Origin: Sulfuricellaceae bacterium
GTDB lineage: Bacteria; Pseudomonadota; Gammaproteobacteria; Burkholderiales; Sulfuricellaceae
DNA length: 64,000 bases
Direction of reading: 5' to 3'
Assembly: GCA_030690895.1 (NCBI GenBank)
Contig: JAUYFQ010000073.1
Span: forward strand, 1-64,000
Position numbers and translations under genes: made by a program. Numbering within the stretch: position 1 is the first letter of the stretch; each line of letters starts with the position of its first letter. The notes beneath the pieces are model-generated. The model saw nothing but the letters and a program-made list of their open reading frames with translations. It had not been told where the DNA came from and made no database searches. Positions 3,280-38,738 of the stretch are shown piece after piece.

Positions 3280-3339
3280 GACGTGAGCACCTCTAAAAAT
3301 CCAACTTTCGTCGCGATGTACCCGCAAGGGGCATCACCA

Positions 3340-3370
3340 CCACTGTAACCGGCTGAAGCCGGAACAGTGG
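3340..3370. repeat. REP-like hairpin, copy 1
   Basis: CCACTGT, AA, CCGGCT, loop GA, AGCCGG, A, ACAGTGG: a nearly perfect stem-loop. It is followed by a weaker second stem (GAGCGAC...GTTGCTC). The same unit recurs 101 bases downstream with only a few substitutions. Confidence 0.75.
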
Positions 3371-3440
3371 AGCGACCGCGTTGCTCACAAAAAATCACTC
3401 CTTACATATCAAGCATATGTACCCGTAAAGGGCATCACCG

Positions 3441-3471
3441 CCACTGTAACCGGCTAAAGCCGGAACAGTGG
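3441..3471. repeat. REP-like hairpin, copy 2
   Basis: Second copy of the stem-loop, with loop AA instead of GA, followed by the compact stem GCGAC-GGC-GTCGC. The changes between copies keep pairing, which suggests that structure rather than sequence is maintained. Confidence 0.75.
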
Positions 3472-3541
3472 CGCGACGGCGTCGCAATTTTTTGCTCGCG
3501 CCTTGCCTAGCTTAGAAACTTGAATTTTTAGAGATGCCCAC

Positions 3542-7873: not shown

Positions 7874-8620
7874 ATGTTATTGAATGAACTGGAAAGCTAT
7901 ATTGCCCAATTGCTGGATATTTCAAGCTTCCGGGATTATTGCCCAAATGGGGTGCAAGTGGAAGGGCGTGCAGAAATCGGCAAGATCGTCACCGGCGTCA
8001 GTGCCAGCATGGACGTGTTGCAGGCGGCAAGTAGCGCGGGTGCCGATGCGGTGCTGGTACACCATGGCTATTTCTGGAAAAACGAGCAACCCGTTATCAC
8101 TGGTGTCAAGCGCAAGCGCATCGGCCACCTGATCTCGCATGACATCAGCCTGCTGGCTTATCACCTGCCTTTGGATGCGCATCCGACGCTGGGCAATAAT
8201 GCCCAGTTGGCCAATTTGCTGGACTTTCAATGCGAGCGCCTGTTTGGTGATCAAAACATCGCGGCAGCAGGAAGCCTGGCTGAGCCCATGAGACTGAGCG
8301 CATTGGCCGGGCGAATTGAAGAGAAGTTACAGCGTCGGCCACTGGTTTTCGGTCGGGATGATGCACCCATCCGCCGTATCGCCTGGTGCAGTGGCGCGGC
8401 TCAGGATTATCTGGGTGCAGCCATCGCGCTAGGAGTGGACGCTTTTCTGACGGGGGAGGTCTCCGAGCAGACCGTGCACCTGGCGCGCGAATCCGGCGTG
8501 GCTTTCATCTCGGCTGGGCACCACGCCACCGAGCGTTATGGAATCCAGGCGCTGGGGGCGCACCTGGCTGAGCAGTTCGGCCTGCAGCACACCTTTATCG
8601 ATGCGGACAATCCGGTTTGA
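7874..8620 (+). CDS. Nif3-like dinuclear metal centre hexameric protein
   Basis: 248 residues. Start at 7874 with a GGGAGG ribosome site at 7860-7865, giving M-L-L-N-E-L-E-S-Y-I. The Nif3/DUF34 metal-binding histidines appear in V-H-H-G-Y-F-W, in Y-H-L-P-L-D-A-H-P near residue 100, and in the C-terminal S-A-G-H-H-A-T-E-R-Y-G. Nif3 family proteins bind two metal ions; a GTP cyclohydrolase-like or metal-handling role has been suggested but not settled. It is often found beside a DegQ-type protease in Betaproteobacteria, as here. Confidence 0.9.
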   Translation: MLLNELESYIAQLLDISSFRDYCPNGVQVEGRAEIGKIVTGVSASMDVLQAASSAGADAVLVHHGYFWKNEQPVITGVKRKRIGHLISHDISLLAYHLPLDAHPTLGNNAQLANLLDFQCERLFGDQNIAAAGSLAEPMRLSALAGRIEEKLQRRPLVFGRDDAPIRRIAWCSGAAQDYLGAAIALGVDAFLTGEVSEQTVHLARESGVAFISAGHHATERYGIQALGAHLAEQFGLQHTFIDADNPV

Positions 8621-8714
8621 TTGCTGCAAGCAGTTTCGGGCGATGCGGGGTAAACTATGTGCATATCATTATGACGAGAGTTTTTCAGGCGTTAGCCAAA
8701 GTCCGCATGAGTTC

Positions 8715-10166
8715 ATGAGCACAAATTTTACCCAATCTTCGCCCCCGCCATTAAAGAGTCGACCCAGGTTGATGATCGTCGACGACGATCCTCTCATTAC
8801 CGACACGCTGCATTTTGCGTTGAGCAAGGATTTTGAGGTTTATGTGGCGGATTCTCGCGAGCAGACGGCGAGTCTGTTGCGCCAGATGGAGTCACCGCCC
8901 GAACTGGCTTTGATCGATCTTGGGCTTCCGCCCTTGCCGCATCGCCCAGACGAGGGATTTCGGTTGATCAGCGATTTGCTGGCGCTTGCCCCGGATATAC
9001 GCATCGTGGTCTTGTCTGGCCAGAATGGCGAGGCTAACGCCCGTCACGCCCGGACGCTGGGTGCGGTGGAATTCGTGGCCAAACCGTGTGAACCGTCGCG
9101 GCTTAAATCGCTGTTGTTTGATGTGATGCGCATCGCCGAGCCAGTTCGGCCAGTGGCGGATTCACCTTGTGGCATTTTGGGCGAGAGTTTCCATATTGAA
9201 AAACTGCGCCAGCAGATCGGCCAGTTTGCCAACGCGCCTTTCCCTGTTTTGATCGAGGGTGAGTCAGGCAGCGGCAAGGAACTGGTGGCCGGGTGTCTGC
9301 ACCGCATGAGCGGACGCGCTACACAGCCTTACTTGGCGCTGAACTGCGCCGCCATTGCGCCGACGCTGGTCGAGCCGACCCTGTTCGGCTATTGCAAAGG
9401 GGCGTTCACGGGCGCCAACACCACGCGCTCCGGTTATTTCGAAGACGCAAGTGATGGCGCGTTGTTTCTCGATGAAATTGGTGAGTTGCCGGTCGAGTTG
9501 CAGGCCAAGTTGCTGCGCGTGCTGGAGAACGGAGAATACCAGCGCGTGGGTGAAACCCAGACTCGACGCAGCAATGCGCGCATTATCGCGGCAACCAACC
9601 GGGACATTCGCCAGGAGATACGGGCGGGGCGTTTTCGCGCTGATCTTTATCATCGCCTGAGCGTGTTTACCCTGAATGTGCCCCCCTTGCGCGATCTGGG
9701 GGACGACCGTTTGCAATTGCTGAGTCACTTCTGTTCGTTGTATGCCAGTCAGGGAAATTGCGCGTCCTTCGTCCTTGATGCGGGCGCACGGGAACTTTGG
9801 CTGGCCTATCACTTCCCGGGTAACGTCAGGGAACTGCGCAATATCGTCATTCGCCTGATTACCAAACATTCCGGTACCGTTGTTTCGCGCGCGCAGTTAC
9901 AGATGGAACTGGAGATGGACCCAGACTCGGTGGGCGGGTTACTGCCGCTCAATGACGCACTTTCCATGGAAGAAATGGCGCGCAAGCATTTACAGGTTCA
10001 GGTCAATTTCAATCTGGATCAGACGCTGAAAACCTGGGAGCAGGCCTATGTCGAAGCCGCACTCAAGATAACCAGTGGAAATCTGAGCCAAGCGGCCAAG
10101 TTGCTGGGCATCAATCGCACCACGCTTTACAGTCGCATGCAATCGTATTCTGACGGGGAACTCTAA
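8715..10166 (+). CDS. sigma54-dependent response regulator, NtrC family
   Basis: 483 residues. It has a receiver domain (residues 18-135, acidic pocket D-D-D at 23-25, phospho-acceptor Asp68 in LIDLG). A sigma54 AAA+ domain follows, with Walker A G-E-S-G-S-G-K-E (182-189), the GAFTGA loop (229-234) that contacts sigma54, and F-L-D-E-I-G. A Fis-type helix-turn-helix lies near the C-terminus (G-N-L-S-Q-A-A-K-L-L-G-I-N-R-T-T-L). The start at 8715 removes an upstream extension overlapping the Nif3 gene. It directly abuts the ExeA-like gene, so it may control the pilus operon it heads. No partner kinase lies beside it. Confidence 0.92.
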   Translation: MSTNFTQSSPPPLKSRPRLMIVDDDPLITDTLHFALSKDFEVYVADSREQTASLLRQMESPPELALIDLGLPPLPHRPDEGFRLISDLLALAPDIRIVVLSGQNGEANARHARTLGAVEFVAKPCEPSRLKSLLFDVMRIAEPVRPVADSPCGILGESFHIEKLRQQIGQFANAPFPVLIEGESGSGKELVAGCLHRMSGRATQPYLALNCAAIAPTLVEPTLFGYCKGAFTGANTTRSGYFEDASDGALFLDEIGELPVELQAKLLRVLENGEYQRVGETQTRRSNARIIAATNRDIRQEIRAGRFRADLYHRLSVFTLNVPPLRDLGDDRLQLLSHFCSLYASQGNCASFVLDAGARELWLAYHFPGNVRELRNIVIRLITKHSGTVVSRAQLQMELEMDPDSVGGLLPLNDALSMEEMARKHLQVQVNFNLDQTLKTWEQAYVEAALKITSGNLSQAAKLLGINRTTLYSRMQSYSDGEL

Positions 10167-31489: not shown

Positions 31490-31627
31490 TGAAACAACGC
31501 GAAGCGTTGCCCTCGTCCCCCTCTCCCTCCGGGGGAGGGCGGGGGAGGGGGAAACGGTCATACCCAAAAGGGCGCAAGTGGCGAAGTGTTGTTTCATGAT
31601 TTTGGGTGGCGATTCGCCATGACCGTT
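31490..31627. repeat. nested palindromic region upstream of birA
   Basis: Several interlocking inverted repeats occur. TGAAACAAC (31490-31498) pairs with GTTGTTTCA (31588-31596); AACGGTCAT (31553-31561) with ATGACCGTT (31619-31627); ACCCAAAA (31562-31569) with TTTTGGGT (31600-31607). There is also a TGGCGA-T-TCGCCA stem (31607-31619). Between them lies a CCCTCTCCCTCC/GGGGGAGGG hairpin. The arms overlap, so not all can form at once. There is no gene in the stretch. It may be a dispersed mobile repeat or a terminator region. Confidence 0.65.
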
Positions 31628-32207
31628 AGCCGAACGTTCCGGATTCTTCCGAAAACAGGCCGCTCAGGCCGCGCCGGAGCAGTTCAAGCGCGTTGGGAAC
31701 CTCGATCTCAACGACCTGGTCGATGGTCCACGACTGGTCTTGCTTGGGCATCAGGCCAATGATCATGCTGCCAAGAAAGCGGCGGCACGGGTAGCCAGGT
31801 TCGCCATTTTCGTAGTCGAAGCCCGCATATTCGGCGAGACGTTCGTTGAGTAGCGTGATGAAGCGGGACTGGTAAGATGTGCCTTCTGGCTGCCCAATGT
31901 AGGTGAGCTGATTGTCTTCCAGAATTTCGGCTATGCGCTTGGCAATGGCGCCGATCAGGGCAGCGCGATATTCTTCTTCAACCCTGCCATAGATGAAGCG
32001 GTCGGTATATTGGAGCAGAAAAGCCAGATATTCGGAAATTATGGCAAATCCCTGTTCCTTGGAGCTGATCTGAAAGTCAGCCTGCTGCATGTGCGTCACT
32101 TTTTCTTCGGCAACCCGAAAAATCAGCGAAGCAACGACGGTCGCGACCTGCTGGGGGCTTTTCGCCTCTCCGGTGGTGTGCCACTGACTTCTTACACGAA
32201 TTGCCAT
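31626..32207 (-). CDS. conserved-looking protein of unknown function
   Basis: 193 residues; I do not recognise the family. It is soluble, mostly helical by composition, with an acidic centre (V-E-E-E-Y-R-A-A-L-I-G-A-I-A-K-R-I-A-E-I-L) and two Cys-poor halves, the second containing Y-P-C-R-R-F-L-G-S. It lies four bases after the rhodanese gene on the same strand, so it is very probably translated from the same transcript and may serve sulfur metabolism. Confidence 0.7.
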   Translation of the reverse strand: MAIRVRSQWHTTGEAKSPQQVATVVASLIFRVAEEKVTHMQQADFQISSKEQGFAIISEYLAFLLQYTDRFIYGRVEEEYRAALIGAIAKRIAEILEDNQLTYIGQPEGTSYQSRFITLLNERLAEYAGFDYENGEPGYPCRRFLGSMIIGLMPKQDQSWTIDQVVEIEVPNALELLRRGLSGLFSEESGTFG

Positions 32208-32211
32208 GCCG

Positions 32212-33060
32212 CTACTCTCCTGTTTCCACCGGTCTTCCTGGGTCGGTAATCCAGTCGCTCCATGATCCGGGGTAAAGCCGGGCGCCCTGGAGCCCGGCGT
32301 GTTCCATCGCGATCAGGCTGTGGCAGGCTGTGACACCCGAGCCGCACATGTGGATGACGTTTTCCGGCGCAGTGCCGTCCAGCAATTCCAGATAGGCTTC
32401 GCGCAATTCTTCGACGGGAAGATACGTGCTGTCCATGTCCAGATTATCCTCGAAAGGGTAATTGATGCTGCCCGGTATGTGTCCGGCTACCTTGTCCAGC
32501 GCTTCCCGCTCACCGCTGAACCGCTCTTCCGAACGTGCATCGATGATGAGGTTTTTCTGGTTGAGGATGGCCTGCTCTATACCGGCGGCGTCTACCCACA
32601 TCCGGTCGTCCGGTTGGGCAGTGAATGTCGTTGGCGCGGCATTCGGAATCTCGGTTGCCAGATTCTGTATTTGCTTGCTCCAGCGTTGTATGCCGCCATC
32701 CAGCAGGGCGACGGCATCGTGCCCCAGCCAGCGCAGCAACCACCACATCCGGCATGCCATGGAGCCGAAACTGTCGTCATATACGACTACCTGCTTATTG
32801 CGATCAACCCCCCATTCACCGAGTTTTTTTGCCAGCAAGCTCACATCAGGCAGCGGGTGACGGCCGGTGTTGGCGGTGACCTCTGCAGACAGATCGTTAT
32901 TCAGGTGAGCATAGCGTGCCCCCGGAATATGTCCTTTCAAGTATGCGCGGTATCCTGCCATATCGTCAGAAAGGGTGAACCGACAATCAAAAACGATCCA
33001 CTCGGGATCGTTCAAGTGCTGTGCAAGTTGTTCTGCACTAATCAGGGTGGTGAATTTCAT
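32212..33060 (-). CDS. two-domain rhodanese (thiosulfate/3-mercaptopyruvate sulfurtransferase)
   Basis: 282 residues from the ATG at 33060 (an ATG at 33093 is an alternative). Two rhodanese domains: the inactive N-terminal one (W-I-V-F-D-C-R-F) and the active C-terminal one, whose loop C-G-S-G-V-T-A-C carries the persulfide cysteine near residue 240. C-G-S-G-V-T-A is the SseA/3-mercaptopyruvate type loop. Next to dsr it could load sulfane sulfur onto TusA or DsrE. It is in a minus-strand operon with an RspA-like gene. Confidence 0.9.
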   Translation of the reverse strand: MKFTTLISAEQLAQHLNDPEWIVFDCRFTLSDDMAGYRAYLKGHIPGARYAHLNNDLSAEVTANTGRHPLPDVSLLAKKLGEWGVDRNKQVVVYDDSFGSMACRMWWLLRWLGHDAVALLDGGIQRWSKQIQNLATEIPNAAPTTFTAQPDDRMWVDAAGIEQAILNQKNLIIDARSEERFSGEREALDKVAGHIPGSINYPFEDNLDMDSTYLPVEELREAYLELLDGTAPENVIHMCGSGVTACHSLIAMEHAGLQGARLYPGSWSDWITDPGRPVETGE

Positions 33061-33147: not shown

Positions 33148-33480
33148 TTAGTAGCCGCCTTTACCGAATGGCTTGGGCAGGCCGGCTACCTTTGCCGATT
33201 GGCGGTTGGGCTGCATGGGGAACAGGACGTAGAGGTGTTTTTTCCAGTCCGTGCCAGGATTCGATTCGTCAAAATCCTTGCACATATTGCGGAAATTTGG
33301 AGTCTGGCCATGCTCCTTGTACTGATCGCGCATGTAGTTGACCACGAGCCAATGCTCATCGGTCAGTTTGATGTTTTCGGCTTCTGCGATGACTGTCACT
33401 GCTTCATCACTGAAGTTTGCATCAATCAGGAAACCATCATCACATGTTTCAAGTTCTTCGCCGTTAATGACATAACCCAT
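33148..33480 (-). CDS. DsrC/TusE-superfamily protein lacking both redox cysteines (RspA-like)
   Basis: 110 residues, the same length as the DsrC at 38335. The N-terminus M-G-Y-V-I-N-G-E-E-L and the core L-T-D-E-H-W-L-V-V-N-Y-M-R match DsrC, as does K-V-A-G-L-P-K-P at the end. However, the CysB position is Ala96 (QSAKVAG against QACKIAG in DsrC) and the CysA position is not Cys (tail F-G-K-G-G-Y). Members without either cysteine have been called RspA and are thought to be regulatory. It cannot carry the DsrC trisulfide. The two remaining Cys (13 and 67) are elsewhere. Confidence 0.85.
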   Translation of the reverse strand: MGYVINGEELETCDDGFLIDANFSDEAVTVIAEAENIKLTDEHWLVVNYMRDQYKEHGQTPNFRNMCKDFDESNPGTDWKKHLYVLFPMQPNRQSAKVAGLPKPFGKGGY

Positions 33481-33516
33481 GAAAAATCTCCTTGTTTAAG
33501 GGTGGTTTAAGGGCGC

Positions 33517-34182
33517 TCAAGTGAGCGCGTTAATGGATTTGTGGGGTATGAAAATCCCACATCCTATCTTGCGGTAGTTGCCTAGCCCGCGTTGCTGCAC
33601 AAGAATCGAGTGTTCCACTGGCAAGCCGTGCAACATCAGGCTGTAGCCACTTGCTACGCCATCCGCAGTCCGGATGGACTGCCGCCTGCCACAAATGAAA
33701 CGGGAGTCGATTTCCATTTCATCCAGCAGGCGGATTATATCAGCCGCAAAGACCGTTTCGTCATCACTGCCCGTACTTACACAATGCGCGAAAAGAGGAG
33801 TGTGGCGAGTGAGCGGACGCATTTTACCTGCGCCAATCAGCAGCGGCACCCCATCAATTGCGATACTCTGGCCAGACAAGGCGAGAATCTCTTGAACCCG
33901 TATTCTAGGGATTCGGATACTCAATCGAGCCCGCCGATTGAGTATGATTTTAGTCAATCCAGGTTCGGGCGCATGTACAGAGTGGATGCCAGCCAGTTCT
34001 TCGTCGGGTAACCATGGCATCAGTTCGCAAAGTGCCTGAAAAAGCGCATAACCATTGTCGACAGGGATGGAGTGGCCGCTCAGTTCAAACTGCACATCCG
34101 TAACCAGTCCCTCATCTATCGTGGGTGATTCTGCTTGGTAAGCTAGCCAGCCGATTTTGTTTCTCCTTGTGTCTTTGACCAT
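33517..34182 (-). CDS. stand-alone Cas6-like (Cmx6-type) RAMP protein
   Basis: 221 residues. The pattern fits the Cas6/Cmx6 family annotated with type I-MYXAN systems. Points of match are I-P-V-D-N-G-Y-A-L-F-Q-A-L-C-E-L-M-P near the start, R-L-S-I-R-I-P in the middle, F-I-C-G-R-R-Q-S-I-R, and the C-terminal glycine-rich RAMP loop G-L-G-N-Y-R-K-I-G-C-G-I-F-I-P. No CRISPR array or other cas gene is in the window. The gene overlaps the small gene upstream by 40 bases and lies 36 bases before the RspA-like gene, so it belongs to a dsr-divergent operon. The family call is from memory of the motif. Confidence 0.62.
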   Translation of the reverse strand: MVKDTRRNKIGWLAYQAESPTIDEGLVTDVQFELSGHSIPVDNGYALFQALCELMPWLPDEELAGIHSVHAPEPGLTKIILNRRARLSIRIPRIRVQEILALSGQSIAIDGVPLLIGAGKMRPLTRHTPLFAHCVSTGSDDETVFAADIIRLLDEMEIDSRFICGRRQSIRTADGVASGYSLMLHGLPVEHSILVQQRGLGNYRKIGCGIFIPHKSINALT

Positions 34183-34367
34183 TCAAGCAATGCCGTTCCC
34201 CAGCGCTCAGCCGTCGTTGAATCTATCTCGAAAATGGTGAATCGCTTGATTTCTCGAAGCCTGAGCCTGAGTGTGCTAAAACCAGCCGCATGATTGATTT
34301 GCTGCAGTTCGATTTGCTGACGATAAGGCGTTGCCAGGAATTTGTCCAAATCTATAATTTCATCCAT
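34143..34367 (-). CDS. small protein of unknown function
   Basis: 74 residues, starting M-D-E-I-I-D-L-D-K-F-L-A-T-P-Y-R-Q-Q-I-E-L-Q-Q. No cysteine, no membrane helix. The string L-R-L-R-L-R-E-I-K-R-F-T-I-F-E-I-D followed by W-G-T-A-L-L-E-W looks like a small alpha/beta protein. It is the first gene of the minus-strand set divergent from dsrA and overlaps the Cas6-like gene by 40 bases in another frame, which argues for real coupled translation. Confidence 0.65.
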   Translation of the reverse strand: MDEIIDLDKFLATPYRQQIELQQINHAAGFSTLRLRLREIKRFTIFEIDSTTAERWGTALLEWSKTQGETKSAG

Positions 34368-34719
34368 AATGCAGCCTCTGATTTATTATTGCTAGGTTAT
34401 AGCGGGATAAATAAAGCTCATGTCACGGGTCTGCAAGGGATCTACTCCATATGGGTAGTTCTCAGCTAATCCAAGTGGGTGTGCGATCTACGCCCTGTCG
34501 TAGACCGGGGTAGCCGCGAAGAATGATGGTAATGAAAAATACAACGGCTGTAATATTGTCGGCTACTACTGAAGTTCAGATCGCCTGTGTAGTGGTGATA
34601 CTGCAGTTGTGAATTTAATACGAATATAAGCTCGCATAGAAGAGTTGATTAATTAACCTAGATGGCTAGGCCGGGTGAAACTGGCGCAGCTGGTTGTTAC
34701 TTTTTTTTGGAGAAAACGC
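34368..34719. promoter_or_regulatory. divergent dsr / RspA-operon control region
   Basis: 352 bases without a gene, AT-richer than the flanks. It holds three palindromes: CTACT-CCATATGG-GTAG (34442-34458, operator-like), TCTACG...CGTAGA (34487-34504) and CCTAG-ATGG-CTAGG (34657-34670). No convincing -35/-10 pair with good spacing was found; TATAAG (34625-34630) is the best -10 candidate for dsrA. The dsr operon of related bacteria is induced by reduced sulfur, so regulator sites are expected here. Confidence 0.6.
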
Positions 34720-36012
34720 ATGGCTAAAAAAATGCACGATACGCCTAACCTGGATCAACTTGAGAGCGGTCCTTGGCCAAGCTTCGTTACGGGCTTGAAG
34801 CGCGAGGCGGCTAAAAAAGACATCATGGTCGATCTGATGGGTCAACTTGAAGCGTCTTACAAGACCAAAAAAGGCTACTGGAAAGGCGGTACGGTCGGTG
34901 TGTTCGGTTACGGCGGCGGCGTGATTCCTCGCTTCACTGAACTGAAAGACGAAAACGAGAATCCGGTTTTTCCTGATGCAGCCGAATTCCACACGCTGCG
35001 CATTCAGCCTCCAGCAGGCATGCACTACGATACGGGCACGCTGCGCAAGTTCTGTGATATCTGGGATAAATATGGTTCCGGTTTGATTGCATTCCACGGT
35101 CAGTCTGGCGACATCATGTTCCAGGGCTGTACAACTGCAAACGTTCAGCCGTCCTGGGAAGAGTTCAACGCAATGGGTTTTGACCTGGGTGGCGCAGGTC
35201 CTGCGCTGCGTACTTCCATGTCTTGCGTTGGTGCTGCCCGCTGCGAAATGTCTTGCTACGATGAAGCCAAGGCTCTGCGCACCATTATCAACAACAATCT
35301 GGACGATATGCACCGTCCAGCATTGCCTTACAAATTCAAATTCAAATTCTCTGGCTGCCCGAATGACTGCGTAAATGCTATTCAGCGTTCCGACATGGCA
35401 ACCATCGGTACTTGGCGTGACAATATTCGTGTTGATGAGGCGATTGCCCGTGATTACATGAAAAGCCACGGCATGGACAAGTTGGTAAACGACGTGATCA
35501 GCAAGTGCCCAACCCGTGCAATCACCTTGCGTAACAAGGCTGATGCAGTTGGTGGCGATAGCGTGTCGACCGTTGCAGTCGACGATCAACATGTTATGCA
35601 AATTGAAAATCACGATTGTGTACGTTGCATGCACTGCCTGAATGTGATGCCGGGCGCGTTGTTGCCTGGTAACGATAAAGGCGTGACAATCCTGGTTGGC
35701 GGCAAGAGCGTTCTGAAAATCGGCGCAACCATGGGTACAGTCGTGATCCCGTTCATGAAGATGGAGTCCGATGAGGACTTCGAGAAGTTGAATGAACTGT
35801 CCCGCAATATTCTGGACTTCTTTGCTGAAAATGCGCTGGAACATGAGCGTACCGGCGAGATGATCGAGCGTATCGGTCTGGTGAACTTCCTTGAAGGTCT
35901 GGATATCGAGATTGATCCATCCATGATTTCGCACCCACGCTCTAACCCATATGTCCGTATGGATGATTGGGAAGAGGAAGCTGAAAAGTGGAACGAGCGT
36001 AAATCTGCCTAA
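34720..36012 (+). CDS. dsrA: reverse-type dissimilatory sulfite reductase, alpha subunit
   Basis: 430 residues, start at 34720 with a TTTGGAGA ribosome site. DsrA with DsrB forms the siroheme [4Fe-4S] enzyme that oxidises DsrC-bound sulfur to sulfite. The siroheme-cluster cysteines are C169-X5-C175 (S-C-V-G-A-A-R-C) and C213-X3-C217 (G-C-P-N-D-C). An added ferredoxin cluster is given by S-K-C-P-T-R-A-I and C-V-R-C-M-H-C (about 265-325). Direction (oxidative) is inferred from the gene set: dsrEFH and dsrL present, no dsrD seen. Confidence 0.97.
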   Translation: MAKKMHDTPNLDQLESGPWPSFVTGLKREAAKKDIMVDLMGQLEASYKTKKGYWKGGTVGVFGYGGGVIPRFTELKDENENPVFPDAAEFHTLRIQPPAGMHYDTGTLRKFCDIWDKYGSGLIAFHGQSGDIMFQGCTTANVQPSWEEFNAMGFDLGGAGPALRTSMSCVGAARCEMSCYDEAKALRTIINNNLDDMHRPALPYKFKFKFSGCPNDCVNAIQRSDMATIGTWRDNIRVDEAIARDYMKSHGMDKLVNDVISKCPTRAITLRNKADAVGGDSVSTVAVDDQHVMQIENHDCVRCMHCLNVMPGALLPGNDKGVTILVGGKSVLKIGATMGTVVIPFMKMESDEDFEKLNELSRNILDFFAENALEHERTGEMIERIGLVNFLEGLDIEIDPSMISHPRSNPYVRMDDWEEEAEKWNERKSA

Positions 36013-37140: not shown

Positions 37141-37180
37141 CTGATCACGGGATCAACCCGTGATCAGGGTTGATTTTTTT
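37141..37180 (+). terminator. strong hairpin with T-run between dsrB and dsrE
   Basis: A perfect 11-base stem CTGATCACGGG (37141-37151) / CCCGTGATCAG (37157-37167) with loop ATCAA. A run of seven T is reached seven bases further on. The T-run is slightly displaced, which suits a partial (read-through) terminator or an RNA-stability stem that protects the dsrAB message. Confidence 0.7.
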
Positions 37181-38675: not shown

Positions 38676-38738
38676 CAGGTGCTGAGGGGGCTTAGTCCCC
38701 TCAACCTGTCAAAATAAATTGGCAAGAATGTTCTTGCC
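38676..38738 (+). terminator. two tandem hairpins between dsrC and dsrM
   Basis: The first stem is CAGGT...TGAGGGG / CCCCTCA...ACCTG (38676-38708, GC bulge). The second is a perfect GGCAAGAA-TG-TTCTTGCC (38721-38738). Neither is followed by a T-run, so they look more like transcript-end stabilisers or attenuators than full terminators. Confidence 0.65.

Follow-up and report, generated by a model that had tools for sequence, protein, structure and literature searches.

The DNA analysed here, a 64-kb stretch taken over its whole length and referred to below as the window, encodes a Cas6 family protein, Cas6L, whose gene faces dsrA. Cas6L belongs to the Cas6 family by profile and by fold, co-occurs and is syntenic with dsrA, is independent of cas1, is paired with a DsrC paralogue that ends in Lys-Gly-Gly-Tyr (KGGY), and is kept under purifying selection. 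The explanation that best accounts for these features overall, which we offer tentatively and at just short of an even chance, is that Cas6L left CRISPR immunity and is now an accessory of the oxidative Dsr pathway, present in one copy and passed on largely by vertical descent. The subfamily is labelled as a CRISPR protein in the databases, yet it is tied, independently of CRISPR, to a pathway central to the energy metabolism of sulfur oxidizers. If the explanation is true, the CRISPR annotation is misleading in hundreds of genomes, the oxidative Dsr pathway gains an overlooked, near-universal component in the class, and tractable bacteria offer a direct test of how a Cas protein evolved into metabolism or its regulation, with the KGGY tail and a candidate operator motif at dsrA as precise handles; the tie between Cas6L and dsr suggests that sulfur handling includes an unexplored step, possibly one based on RNA. 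We found no paper in the open-access literature on a link between Cas6 and dsr, or on a relevant use of Cmx6, an absence that does not prove novelty. The passages searched in papers that treat the genome of A. vinosum, sulfur transfer by Dsr proteins and Dsr evolution make no mention of a Cas6 at the dsr locus (PMC3368242, PMC3397948, PMC11406059, PMC10504309).

The Cas6L operon lies divergent from dsr

The locus consists of two divergent operons, dsrABEFHCMKL on the + strand, starting at position 34720 with dsrA (34720..36012; TIGR02064, 518.6 bits), and the Cas6L operon on the − strand; the promoter region between them (34368..34719) measures 352 bases from start codon to start codon. The − strand operon opens with a small gene coding for a 74-aa protein of the DUF6967 family (34143..34367; PF22295, 89.1 bits in Pfam), which overlaps by 40 bases the gene for Cas6L (33517..34182; 221 aa), assigned by profiles and an AlphaFold model to the Cas6 family (PF09559/TIGR02807) and representing a dsr-dedicated subfamily. 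Located 36 bases downstream of the Cas6L gene is that of a KGGY-tailed, RspA-like DsrC paralogue of 110 aa (33148..33480, −; PF04358, the DsrC family, 102.9 bits). It is followed by a gene for a rhodanese or 3-mercaptopyruvate sulfurtransferase-like protein (32212..33057, −; PF00581, 111 bits, and synteny), which is a downstream operon member in most Betaproteobacteria-type loci, and by p156 (31626..32096, −), a conserved downstream gene assigned by synteny, which codes for at least 156 aa and whose start is uncertain, the ORF reaching 32207; profile searches with p156 gave zero families above the cut-off. The gene positions and the operon layout facing dsrA, as described in the initial annotation, were correct when the coordinates were rechecked. 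That annotation also held that the window carries no CRISPR array and no other cas gene; this stands as regards the array, and has to be read beside the type I-C locus that the genome carries on another contig (C3; see below). The window has no Rfam matches and no array-like direct repeats. A 69-base sequence is present at 3316-3485 as two direct copies, 101 bases apart and 90% alike.

Cas6L is a Cas6 family protein

Cas6 is a crRNA-processing enzyme. Cas6L scored 199.5 bits against PF09559 (cut-off 26.7) and 146.3 bits against TIGR02807 (cut-off 98.85), an equivalog model whose family is named type I-MYXAN Cas6. An AlphaFold (AF2) model built with 69 relatives as input (mean pLDDT 92.1, pTM 0.87) has the tandem ferredoxin-like (RAMP) fold of Cas6, and the top matches in both Foldseek and VIA were Cas6 proteins. 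The best solved match, and thus the nearest solved structure, is the Cas6 of a type I-B CRISPR-associated transposon (CAST; PDB 8fcj, chain B; Z 25.6, 2.4 Å over 197 residues, 27% identity), the remaining Cas6 structures matching with a Z of 16.5 or lower; unlike Cas6L, however, that protein acts inside Cascade/CAST and is basic, with a pI of 9.5. The glycine-rich loop near the C-terminus is present. Cas6L is, by profile and by fold, a true Cas6 family protein, and the call of a Cmx6-type RAMP protein with a Cas6-like fold was borne out by the searches against both Cas6/Cmx6 profiles and by the comparison of the predicted structure with Cas6, in which the RAMP fold is present. Among eight close relatives Cas6L is under purifying selection (dN/dS about 0.10), and no stop was seen inside any match to the family in the searches of the order and class genomes. 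Viral or phage carriage was not detected in IMG/VR, queried with a close relative, or in INPHARED.

Cas6L co-occurs with dsrA across the class

A sample of 250 genomes of the order was searched for PF09559 and dsrA. PF09559 was found in 46 genomes, in a single copy each, and all 46 are dsrA-positive, two of them by fragments; expressed the other way, Cas6L is present in 46 of the 51 dsrA-positive genomes and in none of the 199 others. In all 45 family-positive genomes other than that of the window, Cas6L is divergent from dsrA and the DsrC paralogue follows it. Five genomes of the order are dsrA-positive and Cas6L-negative. In one (G145) the second dsr cluster is broken in the assembly and another (G122) is heavily fragmented; in the remaining three (G083, G217 and G132) both Cas6L and the adjacent KGGY-tailed DsrC paralogue are gone, and the rest of the operon is kept. 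For the class, a sample of 369 genomes gave PF09559 in 118, dsrA in 119 and both in 111 (p 7e-75), so that Cas6L is present in 111 of 119 dsrA-positive genomes, vs 7 of the 250 others. dsrA is divergent from Cas6L in 27 of the 35 larger gamma-type neighbourhoods; of the eight exceptions one is at a contig end and others lie away from dsr, with no I-C cas genes nearby and, in the five inspected by eye, no cas-like neighbour. The layout is the same in 78 of 80 named loci, from Sulfuricella, Sulfurimicrobium, Thiobacillus, Sulfuriferula, Tepidiphilus, Rhodocyclaceae and others, the other two being at contig ends. At least 583 relatives of Cas6L were found in our scan, and in a phylum sample of 170 genomes the only PF09559 match was in the window's own genome. 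The conservation of the Cas6L/dsr layout is far beyond chance, and the claim that Cas6L is tied to dsr was sustained at both taxonomic levels. One genome of the order (G241, locus L052) has a gamma-type Cas6L and a dsrA that scores like those of the wider class, which suggests that dsr and Cas6L were transferred together as one block.

Cas6L is independent of CRISPR-Cas

The window's own genome has a single cas1, in a type I-C locus on contig C3 with cas3, cas5c, cas8c, cas7, cas4 and cas1 and at least 14 repeats; the only PF09559 member of the genome is Cas6L, and the I-C locus holds none. In type I-C systems Cas5 matures the crRNA, and the array on C3 therefore needs no Cas6. The initial annotation had proposed a protein that stands alone from CRISPR and named an array with matching repeats, elsewhere in the genome and served by this protein, as evidence to the contrary; an array does exist, but since it is of type I-C and processed by Cas5, the proposal holds in substance. 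Bona fide type I-MYXAN loci have Cas6 accompanied by a cas set. We sought the context of such a locus (cas3, cas8, cas7, cas5 and cas1, with an array) for Cas6L and found it absent, the only cas1 being that of the I-C locus on the other contig; lacking the defining genomic context, the Cas6L system is not CRISPR-Cas. In the class sample, cas1 was found in 43 of 118 Cas6L-positive and in 78 of 251 Cas6L-negative genomes (p 0.34). Of the 118 Cas6L-positive genomes, 75 lack cas1; Cas6L is also retained by five small genomes (1.0-1.1 Mb; G288, G390, G502, G534 and G597) that have no cas1. Outside the class, a plasmid of Gloeobacter morelensis (L153) codes at 7971-8762 for a PF09559-type Cas6 with no annotated cas genes within 8 kb, its neighbours being phosphoadenosine phosphosulfate reductase-family genes, a methyltransferase gene and genes for hypothetical proteins.

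dsr-type and CRISPR-type proteins differ in residues and charge

In a quick tree, 102 dsr-type proteins were separated from eight CRISPR-type proteins, seven encoded on cyanobacterial plasmids, mostly within type I-MYXAN loci, and the solved Cas6, by a branch with an SH-aLRT of 99. Both types have in common a core formed by P56, R90, G104, Q196 and the glycines G199, G201, G207 and G209, the last four in the glycine-rich loop. Specific to the dsr type are R84, E142, G165 and K215, and mostly also H214; R84, R90, K215 and the glycine-rich loop are invariant or nearly so in this type. Thus, Cas6L and the type I-MYXAN Cas6 (Cmx6) belong to the same profile family and have the same two-RRM-like fold with a glycine-rich loop, but Cas6L lies beside dsrA without adjoining cas genes or array, has its own invariants (R84, E142, G165 and K215) and, in the window copy, Asn43, and its core is near neutral: the median net charge of the core is +6 in the CRISPR type vs 0 or −1 in the dsr type. 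This loss of charge is substantive evidence against the dsr type having an overall RNA-binding surface like that of the CRISPR type. Gamma members moreover carry an acidic N-terminal extension, M[FY]W-[QE]-E.

Position 43, where helix 1 begins, is occupied in all seven CRISPR members scored by a His, which by analogy would be the catalytic residue in PF09559. His43 is found in 84 of the 102 dsr-type proteins, that is, in 55 of 56 gamma members and in 29 of 46 order members; the other order members have Tyr (14) or Asn (three, the window copy included). The loss of charge and Asn43 speak against ordinary crRNA-type cleavage by the window copy. However, Asn43 does not prove inactivity, because the solved CAST Cas6 also has an Asn at the aligned position.

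The KGGY-tailed DsrC paralogue and the small neighbours of Cas6L

The DsrC paralogue ends in PKPFGKGGY. The KGGY tail replaces the redox cysteine motif GLPKPTGC, so that both redox cysteines of the C-terminal arm are missing; the protein had been described as cysteine-free, which needs correction, since Cys13 and Cys67 are present. Equivalent tails, in the form GKGGY in the order and RRKGGY in most gamma members, are found at nearly all Cas6L loci. Of 158 class genomes, 46 gave a match to a degenerate DNA pattern written for the gamma-type tail, and 45 of these are Cas6L-positive; the remaining one (G358) is dsr-positive and has the tail gene at a contig end, and among the 158 genomes none that lacks both dsr and Cas6L has the pattern. 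A KGGY DsrC paralogue is present without Cas6L in G217, and the link between the two proteins is therefore strong and not absolute. Their rates show no excess covariation beyond that with the dsr core (partial r −0.06). The name RspA-like follows the initial annotation, and we take the protein to be of the same sort as the RspA-like DsrC paralogues, that is, members of the TusE/DsrC family without redox cysteines, among which it is marked by the K-G-G-Y C-terminus and by the linkage to Cas6L; no paper on RspA-like DsrC paralogues was found in the open-access literature.

The AF2 model of DUF6967 (pLDDT 92.9) has a ββββα topology, which fits that of PC4, Pur-alpha and YdbC proteins. The solved structures that rank highest against it are Pur-alpha, PC4 and related domains that bind single-stranded nucleic acids, and the matches are weak (Z of 7.7 or lower, Foldseek E of 0.58 or higher), no sequence relationship being shown. 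A PUR/PC4-like nucleic-acid-binding fold is therefore a lead only; matches at Z 7.7 are below the level that excludes a common arrangement, and this counts against an RNA reading. In 28 gamma-type loci the slot of DUF6967 is filled by an unrelated-looking gene of 62-66 aa, and in 19 a second gene, of 64-67 aa and with the motif MQ.KFI.YEH, follows the DsrC paralogue; neither is above any Pfam cut-off (examples of small genes around Cas6L are in loci L134, L142, L147 and L129). Three dsr clusters without Cas6L (L108, L109 and L110) keep DUF6967 and p156, with TusA-like genes between them in L108 and L110.

Possible roles of Cas6L in the Dsr pathway

Cas6L and the KGGY-tailed DsrC paralogue probably serve the Dsr pathway as a trans-acting accessory. 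That Cas6L and its KGGY neighbour were lost together from the operon in G083, G217 and G132 counts for this reading, and the persistence of a single copy of Cas6L even in genomes with duplicated dsr suits a trans-acting factor. As to how Cas6L acts, we lean, with somewhat less than even confidence, to the binding, and perhaps in His43 lineages the cleavage, of a specific structured RNA, with DUF6967 as a second partner in Betaproteobacteria-type operons. In such a mechanism the domesticated Cas6L would form a Dsr-dedicated RNA-binding complex with the redox-dead KGGY DsrC paralogue; where the operon is of the Betaproteobacteria type, DUF6967, if PUR/PC4-like, would be a further member that binds nucleic acid. 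The DsrC paralogue would signal the condition of the sulfur relay, and expression of dsr, or of some other RNA that responds to sulfur, would be set by the complex. That Cas6L, the KGGY DsrC and a small partner that binds nucleic acid together form a CRISPR-independent complex, one that processes or binds RNA and is a sulfur-state-dependent post-transcriptional regulator of sulfur oxidation across the dsr-bearing Gammaproteobacteria (GTDB), very reduced genomes included, is a bolder reading that we consider rather unlikely. An RNA role is plausible, if unproven, because of the fold, the conserved glycine-rich loop and basic residues, and the PUR/PC4-like neighbour; these sustain in part the suggestion of the initial annotation that Cas6L takes part in RNA processing or RNA-based control of dsr, against which stand the near-neutral charge and Asn43.

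The same annotation had pointed to hairpins in the dsr transcript as the RNA processed. Strong hairpins are found in the dsrC-dsrM gap (38676-38708) and in the dsrB-dsrE gap (about 37141-37167). The structure of the dsrC-dsrM hairpin is kept, with a sequence that differs by species, in nearly all dsr clusters examined, Cas6L-positive or -negative; since it exists without Cas6L, it cannot serve as specific evidence of what Cas6L acts on, and with its sequence not conserved either, this part of the proposal was abandoned. The hairpin may stabilise, or in part terminate, a highly expressed dsrC message. No RNA substrate for Cas6L emerged from the dsr hairpins examined.

The main rival, close behind the RNA-complex reading although we hold it doubtful, is a protein-only adaptor, in which the Cas6 fold would be reused to bind the KGGY DsrC (or DsrAB, DsrEFH or DsrMKJOP) in sulfur transfer or assembly, RNA activity having been lost. 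The disappearance of the strong positive charge seen in CRISPR-type proteins, the variability of His43, the acidic N-terminal extension of the gamma members and the neighbours of Cas6L (the DsrC paralogue, the rhodanese and, in several loci, TusA-like proteins) all suit an adaptor; the fold features of the RNA side, however, are kept (the glycine-rich loop and R90, along with the dsr-specific invariants R84 and K215), the overlapping DUF6967 gene codes for a protein that resembles single-strand nucleic-acid-binding domains, and an excess of rate covariation between Cas6L and the KGGY DsrC is missing. Cas6 folds, as known for the family, bind small stem-loops, which would fit a tRNA-linked role, an improbable one in our judgement, with Cas6L and a DsrC/TusE-like protein coupling the sulfur relay to the thiolation or binding of tRNA. 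In favour of this role, DsrEFH and DsrC are homologous to TusBCD and TusE, the relay proteins for thiolating tRNA (PMC3397948). Nevertheless, Cas6L is strictly linked to dsrA and missing from dsr-negative genomes that also thiolate tRNA, and the KGGY paralogue has no sulfur-carrying cysteine.

Processing of crRNA in trans, for an array elsewhere, has in its favour the family name (type I-MYXAN Cas6) and the array on contig C3, but we disfavour it as very improbable: the C3 system is of type I-C with Cas5c and does not require a Cas6, most Cas6L genomes, those of 1.0-1.1 Mb included, lack cas1, with which Cas6L is not correlated, and the dsr-type lineage is separate from the CRISPR-linked proteins in the quick tree. 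Least likely of all is passive hitchhiking beside dsr. Cas6L distances do follow dsrA distances (r 0.71), as a hitchhiker's would; against this, Cas6L is single copy across the class, reduced genomes included, is under purifying selection without a stop inside any family match, and is retained even where it lies away from dsr, for example about 42 kb from dsrA in G357.

A recurrent inverted repeat in the dsr promoter region

The divergent promoter region (34368..34719) contains blocks that are conserved in eight relatives. Within it lies an operator-like inverted repeat, CTACTCCATATGGGTAG (34442..34458, without strand), whose class-wide form is TAYCCC-N4-GGGRTA; this is the form found in gamma members, and the order has TA.CCC-N4-GGG.TA forms. 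At least about half of the loci (including L113-L146) have the repeat, some 130-300 bases upstream of dsrA. A relaxed pattern was found in 74 of 119 loci of the order, vs 7 in shuffles, and the repeat is present in 18 of 32 loci of the class set. Complete gamma genomes contain 0-3 copies of the exact motif, one of which usually lies near dsrA. The repeat is a candidate class-wide dsr operator.
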